Shown piece by piece: positions 18,571 through 55,085 of a DNA stretch of 64,000 nt. The notes under the pieces are model-generated. The model was given only the letters and a program-made list of their open reading frames with translations. It did not search any database and was not told where the DNA came from. Position 1 is the stretch's first letter; each line of letters begins with the position of its first letter. This DNA comes from an uncultured Alistipes sp. (GTDB taxonomy: Bacteria; Bacteroidota; Bacteroidia; Bacteroidales; Rikenellaceae), in NCBI GenBank assembly GCA_947177225.1, contig CAMWTS010000001.1, positions 110,507 to 174,506 of the forward strand, written 5' to 3'. A program made the translations under genes and the position numbers.

Positions 18571-18600
18571 ACGGCTGCAAGTCTACTTGCGGCCGTATTT
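18571..18600 (+). terminator. Intrinsic terminator of the TolC-HlyD-ABC permease operon
   Basis: ACGGCTGCAAG-tcta-CTTGCGGCCGT followed by ATTTTTATA. Confidence 0.7.
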
Positions 18601-18731
18601 TTATAATATACAACGAGGTGCCGATATCGGCTCGTATCAACTCCGGACGGCGATCGGTCACACTTGCAGGACAAAGTATTTGATGCCGGACAAATGTTTT
18701 ATTGTATATAGAAATAAATCAATTAAATAAG

Positions 18732-18762
18732 TTTGCGAATTACGAAAAAATTACTACTTTTG
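18732..18762 (+). promoter_or_regulatory. Bacteroidetes-type promoter (-33 TTTG, -7 TANNTTTG) upstream of a structured element
   Basis: TTTG (18732-18735) - 19 nt - TACTTTTG (18755-18762); same spacing as the promoters of both tRNAs in this window. Confidence 0.75.
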
Positions 18763-18766
18763 TATC

Positions 18767-18899
18767 GATCCGACTAAATCGAGACGGCATTTTGCCGAAA
18801 ACCTTACTCACACCGTAGGACTTGTGTCCCCAACGGTGAGTAAGGTTATACTCGGTTTAGTCGGATCATACTAAACAAAAAAGTTGGGGACACTTTTTT
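18767..18899 (+). ncRNA. Candidate novel structured RNA or leader
   Basis: Outer stem GATCCGACTAAATCGAG (18767-18783)/CTCGGTTTAGTCGGATC (18851-18867), internal hairpins CGGCA-ttt-TGCCG and AACCTTACTCAC(AC)CG/CGGTGAGTAAGGTT, loop GTGTCCCCAAC complementary to downstream GTTGGGGACAC-TTTTTT. Confidence 0.6.
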
Positions 18900-18920
18900 A
18901 ATTCGTCGTAGCGATTGAAC

Positions 18921-19031
18921 ATGCGCCGCTCGAAACGAACCGAATACACTGTCTTCCACTATTTTCATAAAATCGAGCGAAATCGGACAACCGACAACGG
19001 ACTGGCCGATGACATTTATCGCAACGACTAA
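18921..19031 (+). CDS. Possible 36-aa small ORF (MRRSKRTEYTVFHYFHKIERNRTTDNGLADDIYRND)
   Basis: ATG...TAA, in frame, between the structured element and a terminator; weakly reminiscent of the YozE/SAM-like motif (LADDIYRD). Not in the supplied ORF track because it is short. Confidence 0.3.
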   Translation: MRRSKRTEYTVFHYFHKIERNRTTDNGLADDIYRND

Positions 19032-28590: not shown

Positions 28591-30309
28591 TCAGCTGAAC
28601 CAGTAAAGCTGGCCGAGCGAAAACTCCTTGGCCGGTTTTACATATGCCCTAACGCCGTCGACCATAACATCGAACGTCTCGGGATTGACATCGATCTGCG
28701 GCATGCCGTTGTTGCGCACCATATTGAACTTGGTGAGCTGACGCGTGCGGCGCACCGGCAGCACCTGACGCTCCAAACCGAGCCGCTCCTTCACACCTGC
28801 CTGGTGTGCGGCATGCGATACGAACGATACGCCGGTCGACTGCAATGCGCGGCCGAACGCGCCGAACATCGGACGATAGTAACATGGCTGAGGAGTCATG
28901 AGCGAAGCATTAGGATCGCCCATATTCGACCAGTTTATGATACCGCCCTTGATAACCATCTTCGGCTTGGCGCCGAAGAACTGCGGCTCCCACAGCACCA
29001 GATCGGCGATCTTGCCCTTTTCGATCGAACCGAGATAGTCGGACACACCGTATGTGATGGCCGGATTGATCGTTATCTTGGCCAAATAGCGCAATACGCG
29101 GAAATTATCGTTGCTGTCGCTGTCTTCTGCAAGTTTGCCGCAAGCGTTCTTCATGAACGATGCCATCTGGAACGTACGCATGAACGATTCGCCTATACGA
29201 CCCATGGCCTGCGAATCCGAAGATACCATCGACAGCACACCGAGGTCGTGCAGCACGTTTTCGGCAGCCTGCGTTTCGGGGCGTACACGGCTCTCGGCAA
29301 ACGCCACGTCCGACGGGATCTTGGGATTGAGATTGTGGCAGACCATTATCATGTCGAACAGCTCGGCCTGCGAGTTGATGCCGAACGGCAGGGTAGGATT
29401 GGTCGACGAGGGCAGAACATACGACATCGACGCCACCTTCAACAGGTCGGGAGCATGACCTCCGCCGGCACCCTCGGTGTGGTAGGTGTGTATGGTTCGA
29501 CCGTCCATGGCCGCTATCGTATCCTCCACATAACCGCCCTCATTGAGCGTATCGGTGTGTATGGCCACCTGCACATCGTAACGGTCGGCCACGCCCAGCG
29601 CCGCACGAATGGCGGCAGGCGTAGAGCCCCAGTCTTCGTGAATCTTCAAACCGCACGCACCGGCCTCGATCTGCTCTTCGAGAGGCTGGTCGAGCGAGCA
29701 GTTGCCCTTGCCCAACAGGCCGACATTGACCGGAATGCCCTCGAACGACTGCAATATGTGTTCGATGTTCCATCTGCCGGAGGTGATAGTGGTGCCGTTA
29801 CTGCCGTCGGTCGGACCTATACCGCCTCCGAAGACAGTTGTTATACCATTGCTCAGACAAGCGTAGGCCTGCTGAGGCGCAATCATATGCACGTGACCGT
29901 CGATACCGGCAGCCGTCAATATCAGATGTTCGCCCGATATGGCATCGGTAGCCGTACTCGTCACCAGATCGGGGTGTACGCCGTGCATCACATTGGGATT
30001 GCCTGCTTTGCCGATACCGGCGATTTTGCCGTCCTTCACTCCGACATCGGCCTTTACCACACCCAGTATTGGATCTATTACCGTAACATTCGTAATCACC
30101 AGATCGAGCGAACCCTCCTTCGAGGTCATCGTATTGGCCAGACCCATACCGTCGCGTATGGTTTTGCCGCCGCCATACACGACCTCGTCGCCATACTCGC
30201 GCAAATCTTTCTCGATCTCCACATAAAGATCGGTATCGCCCAGACGTATCTTGTCGCCGACAGTCGGACCGAACAGGTTATTATATTCCTGACGTGAAAT
30301 TGTTGCCAT
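28591..30309 (-). CDS. ureC: Urease subunit alpha
   Basis: [46 protein letters not shown]. Confidence 0.98.
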
Positions 30310-54836: not shown

Positions 54837-54957
54837 ATTTTTCGTCAAAAGCGGTATTATGCCATGCAACGCAGGAGTGAGACGATGGGCTGTACTGACG
54901 TACTGCCCATTGGCGAACGACAAGGCGCGGAAGCAAATAGCGGCTTTTCATGGAAAA
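54837..54957. repeat. Imperfect palindromic dispersed repeat, copy A
   Basis: Arms TTTTCGTCAAAAGCGG / CGGCTTTTCATGGAAAA, centre ATGGGC-TGTACTGACGTACT-GCCCAT. Confidence 0.75.
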
Positions 54958-54959
54958 GA

Positions 54960-55085
54960 TTTTTCGTCAAAAGGCGTTAGTAGCAAGCCGCACGTGAAAA
55001 GTCCGCCGATGGGGCGTACTGGACGTACGTTCCATTGGCGGACTTAAACGAGGCGAAGCTAATGACGTCTTTTCACGAAAAAGAC
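54960..55085. repeat. Imperfect palindromic dispersed repeat, copy B
   Basis: Arms TTTTTCGTCAAAAGGCGTTAGTAGC / GCTAATGACGTCTTTTCACGAAAAA, centre GTCCGCCGATGGGGCGTAC...GTACGTTCCATTGGCGGAC. Confidence 0.8.

Follow-up and report, generated by a model that had tools for sequence, protein, structure and literature searches.

A lineage-restricted, predicted structured small RNA gene beside ffh in Alistipes with conserved complementarity between an apical loop and the 3' tail

The interval between an ABC-transporter gene and ffh in the window (the whole 64,000-nucleotide stretch of Alistipes DNA analysed here) contains a promoter-like sequence followed by a strongly folding segment, and the question raised by this locus is whether the segment is an RNA gene in its own right, the leader of a gene downstream, the end of a mobile element, or a diverged form of a familiar RNA. 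To our knowledge few non-coding RNAs are known in Bacteroidota outside Bacteroides, and among the papers searched there was none devoted to sRNAs of Alistipes. The explanation that we favour, with moderate confidence, is a stand-alone, lineage-restricted, predicted structured sRNA gene, about 130 nt long and with a promoter of its own, in which the loop and the 3' tail would close a pseudoknot against a competing mini-hairpin. The features of the locus are listed in Table 1.

Table 1. Predicted features of the ffh-side element, in window coordinates.
Feature	Position	Strand	Observations
Upstream box AATGTTTT(A/G)TTGTATA	18693..18708	+	15 of 16 positions identical in three species; flanks diverge
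Promoter TTTG-N19-TACTTTTG	18732..18762	+	Bacteroidota sigma-ABfr type; boxes and 19-bp spacing conserved in three of three species
P1 stem, 5' strand	18767..18783	+	MFE fold; 14-16 of 16 pairs kept in homologues
Hairpin H1, CGGCA-UUU-UGCCG	18785..18797	+	MFE fold; folds of homologues
Hairpin H2, conserved two-nt AC bulge; apical loop with GGAC...GUCC mini-hairpin	18800..18847	+	Folds of the three species
Apical-loop segment GTGTCCCCAAC	18824..18834	+	Complementary to tail
P1 stem, 3' strand	18851..18867	+	MFE fold
Weak hairpin AAAAAAGU...ACUUUUUU plus U-run, probable 3' end in the window	18877..18899	+	-4.3 kcal/mol
3' tail GTTGGGGACAC	18883..18893	+	Complement of apical loop

The element at 18767-18900 (134 nt) has an MFE of -64.2 kcal/mol, compared with a mean of -28.7 +/- 3.9 kcal/mol for shuffled sequences (z = -9.1), and after GC correction it is tied for the second-most structured place in the window, at about 6 sd. 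The transcript would fold as a three-way junction of P1, H1 and H2. The 17-bp length proposed for P1 in the initial annotation is confirmed, as is one G-U pair, and the alternative of a mismatch can be dropped; the GTAT/ATAC extension of this stem is present in the sequence, but it lacks conservation and most of it precedes the expected transcription start. Both of the hairpins proposed to be enclosed by P1, CGGCA-UUU-UGCCG and AACCUUACUCAC(AC)CG...CGGUGAGUAAGGUU, are found in the MFE fold. Two features had been overlooked, the GGAC:GUCC mini-hairpin within the apical loop of H2 and the ability of the tail to fold on itself (Table 1). A still stronger fold, the strongest in the window at -69.3 kcal/mol, is at 54851-55080, where a pair of long hairpins resembling one another (GATGGGCTGTACTGACGTACTGCCCATTGG and GTCCGCCGATGGGGCGTACTGGACGTACGTTCCATTGGCGGAC) lies in an apparently non-coding stretch; they are possibly a repeat or the remnant of a mobile element.

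The element is present as a single copy in its own genome. A BLAST search over 180 genomes of the genus identified two true homologues, in the genomes designated G168 and G098, and a covariance model made from the three sequences and run on the 180 genus genomes and 268 genomes of the family identified the same three loci and no others, these many-genome searches having been run under stricter filters that strongly diverged relatives could escape. GTDB contigs, scanned independently with a pattern, yielded both known homologues again together with five unrelated chance matches, BLAST searches of phages and plasmids gave nothing beyond short matches at chance level, and a pattern scan of viral contigs gave no matches. 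One covariance-model match, in G233 (E 0.06), sits in unrelated sequence and was discarded as noise. G168 and G098 have the closest Ffh among the species compared (99% and 96%, versus 92% or less for the rest), and in other species of the genus the orthologous stretch that follows ffh has no such promoter in the orientation of the RNA. Across the genomes searched, the predicted RNA gene is restricted to one lineage of three sister species. In all three its place is just past the end of ffh, and the two are convergent. Its other neighbour in G168 is the same ABC transporter as in the window, whereas in G098 the other neighbours are a tRNA and a gene that, as read from its sequence, we take to be lepA-like, so that ffh is the constant neighbour of the RNA and the opposite flank varies. 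Terminators set the RNA apart from the ABC-transporter gene upstream and from ffh downstream. We note that the ABC-transporter gene terminator (hairpin plus T-run, 18571-18603) has a similar hairpin at the same place in G168.

The promoter described in the initial annotation as near-ideal for Bacteroidetes is borne out, with TTTG at 18732-18735, a 19-nt spacer and TACTTTTG at 18755-18762, in agreement with the Bacteroidota housekeeping consensus of TTTG near -33 and TAnnTTTG at -7 (PMC7366714). The strict pattern occurs seven times in the 64 kb window when both strands are counted; two of the other plus-strand matches are directly upstream of tRNA genes and one minus-strand match is upstream of ffh, and because of these placements the pattern probably marks real start points in the window. 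The promoter spacer has diverged in G098, while the boxes and the 19-bp spacing are unchanged, so that a conserved promoter of its own, as would be expected of a stand-alone intergenic structured sRNA, accompanies the element in three of three species. Transcription would start at about 18767-18769, as predicted from the position of the promoter. Further upstream there is a conserved box (Table 1), 22-23 nt before the -33 element in the window and in G098, and a search for this box as a regulon motif found no exact copies away from the RNA locus in each genome.

The RNA is considerably more similar among the three species than are the four-fold sites of the neighbouring gene. Identity to the window is 129/138 (93%) in G168 and 113/132 (86%) in G098, and at ffh four-fold degenerate sites it is 68% and 53% respectively (Fisher p about 1e-9 or below for each relative). 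The fold is strong in each species (z = -9.1 in the window, and -7.2 and -5.7 in the homologues), with H1 re-registered in G098 as UCGGC-UUUU-GCCGA. Over the whole structure, with the loop-tail helix counted, 94% of cells in the three-sequence alignment are standard pairs, compared with 30-42% when the strands are slid, a control that leans in favour of the structure since this was taken from the window sequence. These comparisons indicate that the sequence and structure of the RNA are maintained by selection. The element is non-coding, since 1-nt indels between the homologues break the reading frames; there is also no ATG in the window element.

The most distinctive feature is the pairing between the apical loop and the tail. 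The initial annotation reported an exact 11-nt complement of the loop in a tail segment that runs into T6, and we find it to be so; 20,000 shuffles of the tail gave complements to the loop of at most 9 nt and never 11. The pairing is 11/11 in all three species, 100% of the cells of the helix are paired over the 10 pairs counted in the alignment, and the loop segment is part of an 18-nt block (18824-18841) that is invariant in all three species. There are two departures in G098. One is a U-A pair changed to a U-G wobble, and the other is an inserted loop G opposite a U-to-C change in the tail, which gives an extra G-C pair and a helix of 12 bp. Among the aligned columns there are no pairs with a substitution on both sides and no formal covariation, as there are three sequences only. 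The U-run that follows is T6 in the window and is present in G168, and because in G098 it shrinks to UUU while the pairing grows, the pairing appears to be kept for more than termination. The earlier proposal of a pseudoknotted sRNA with a self-made 3' end is thus upheld as to the loop-tail complementarity, which is conserved, and weakened as to the 3' end by the decay of the U-run. From comparison of the three species, then, the locus contains a conserved, promoter-equipped, non-coding element with conserved loop-tail pairing.

A fold with an open loop plus the loop-tail duplex beats the nested MFE by 7.4, 9.9 and 10.7 kcal/mol in the three species before a pseudoknot penalty is subtracted, and because this gain of 7-11 kcal/mol is about equal to a typical penalty, the modelling suggests that the closed and open states are similar in energy. 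P1 is joined to the tail by a linker of 15, 16 and 8 nt in the three species (8 nt in G098), and closure within one molecule would therefore require H2 to be folded back along P1; pairing between two RNA molecules instead of within one is possible. We propose that the H2 apical loop (GUGUCCCCAAC) would pair with the 3' tail, GUUGGGG(A/G)CAC, closing the molecule as a pseudoknot, and that the invariant GGAC:GUCC mini-hairpin in the loop would compete with the tail. Loop and tail would both be masked in the closed state and one or other would be free for a partner in the open state, in which the invariant loop may bind that partner. We infer in this way transcription, pseudoknot formation, a two-state switch and a trans-acting regulatory role. 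A broader and rather doubtful extension is that the RNA represents a self-locking class of regulatory RNA, in which sealing of the apical loop by the tail is reversible, and opening by a partner or condition frees loop or tail to act in trans; if true, this would be a new regulatory RNA class in bacteria with little known base-pairing regulation.

Other explanations differ mainly in what the loop and tail would be for. One of them, a special case of the explanation we favour with the stress on the target, is a trans-acting antisense sRNA whose C-rich apical loop would be an mRNA seed, with the tail serving chiefly as a self-inhibitory lid or terminator. This is conceivable and we hold it tentatively. 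The loop is invariant over 11 nt, which is seed-like and beyond what pairing alone demands, and GibS of Bacteroides thetaiotaomicron is a precedent for trans-acting sRNAs in the phylum (PMC7366714). However, a perfect complement of the loop is confined to the RNA locus in each of the three genomes, 1-mismatch sites are about as many as a control with the pattern reversed gives, and a search for extended trans targets, with 0-1 mismatch to the loop, found none beyond background in these genomes. A riboswitch or attenuator, which the initial annotation offered as an alternative, would have the tail helix act as a ligand- or leader-controlled terminator ahead of a 36-aa ORF (18921-19031). The layout in the window of promoter, structured leader, weak terminator and short ORF could be read in this way, and GUCC does have two mutually exclusive pairings, but the interpretation is improbable because no sense gene follows the RNA in the two relatives, where ffh comes next in both and is read in the opposite direction. 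Moreover, the ORF is not conserved, being absent from the syntenic place in G168 and without relatives in 60 genomes searched, and has no Pfam match, and the loop-tail helix, if forced into the form of a nested terminator, costs about 22, 19 and 9.5 kcal/mol in the three species.

The long and near-perfect inverted repeat is also what would be seen if the terminal repeats of a mobile-element end or remnant (MITE/IS) mimicked an RNA stem, and the initial annotation had raised the end of a known IS/MITE as an identity that would undo its reading. There is, however, one copy per genome at the same site beside ffh in three species, with no copies in the other genomes, phages, plasmids and viral contigs searched, and the promoter and internal loop are conserved too; such an origin seems very unlikely. 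We give equally little credence to a diverged housekeeping RNA (SRP RNA or 6S RNA), although the location beside ffh is suggestive and five genomes of the genus give no 6S match. The genome has a normal SRP RNA elsewhere. 6S RNA folds as a rod with a central bubble, unlike the three-way fold proposed here, and other species of the genus that lack the ffh-side RNA also lack a 6S match, so the RNA does not fill that gap. As a candidate for the locus SRP RNA was rejected, there being no RF00169 match at that place, and the SRP RNA of the genome is on another contig. The 6S models (RF00013 and RF01693) have no match in the genome that holds the window, and a survey of five genomes of the genus with or without the ffh-side RNA (G000, G098, G168, G004 and G064) gave none, so that the genus has either lost its 6S RNA or carries one that has diverged beyond the reach of Rfam.

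The stand-alone sRNA gene that we favour would represent a new RNA family, compact and strongly conserved, whose architecture lends itself to sharp tests; it would also be a lineage-specific RNA gene under strong selection in three sister species, with no occurrence found elsewhere in the genus. The view in the initial annotation that it is not a named RNA family agrees with a search of Rfam 15 at the locus, which at gathering and permissive thresholds gave no family, the best weak match being to a microRNA model (E = 0.28). Elsewhere in the window RF02514 (5' ureB sRNA) matches the plus strand at 29861-30155 (55 bits), probably because the opposite strand encodes a urease-like protein, and not as the sign of a real antisense RNA. 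The element resembles 6S RNA and Bacteroidales-1 (RF00013, RF01693) as a stand-alone structured RNA of similar size, but it is a three-way junction with loop-tail pairing and without an Rfam match. Pseudoknotted riboswitches and other RNAs with loop-to-tail pseudoknots likewise combine pairing of a loop with a 3' segment and a competing local pairing, but the ffh-side RNA is its own gene, with no downstream sense gene in two of the three species. It is closer to the intergenic sRNAs of Bacteroidota of the GibS type, with which it shares a TAnnTTTG promoter, a 3' terminator region, an intergenic site, no neighbouring target and a limited taxonomic range (PMC7366714). GibS uses a single-stranded 5' seed (PMC7366714), whereas in the ffh-side RNA an apical loop holds the conserved segment, which is complementary to the RNA's own tail. 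We therefore rate it as a new family within a known kind, of which intergenic sRNAs such as GibS are the nearest members, with a different architecture.
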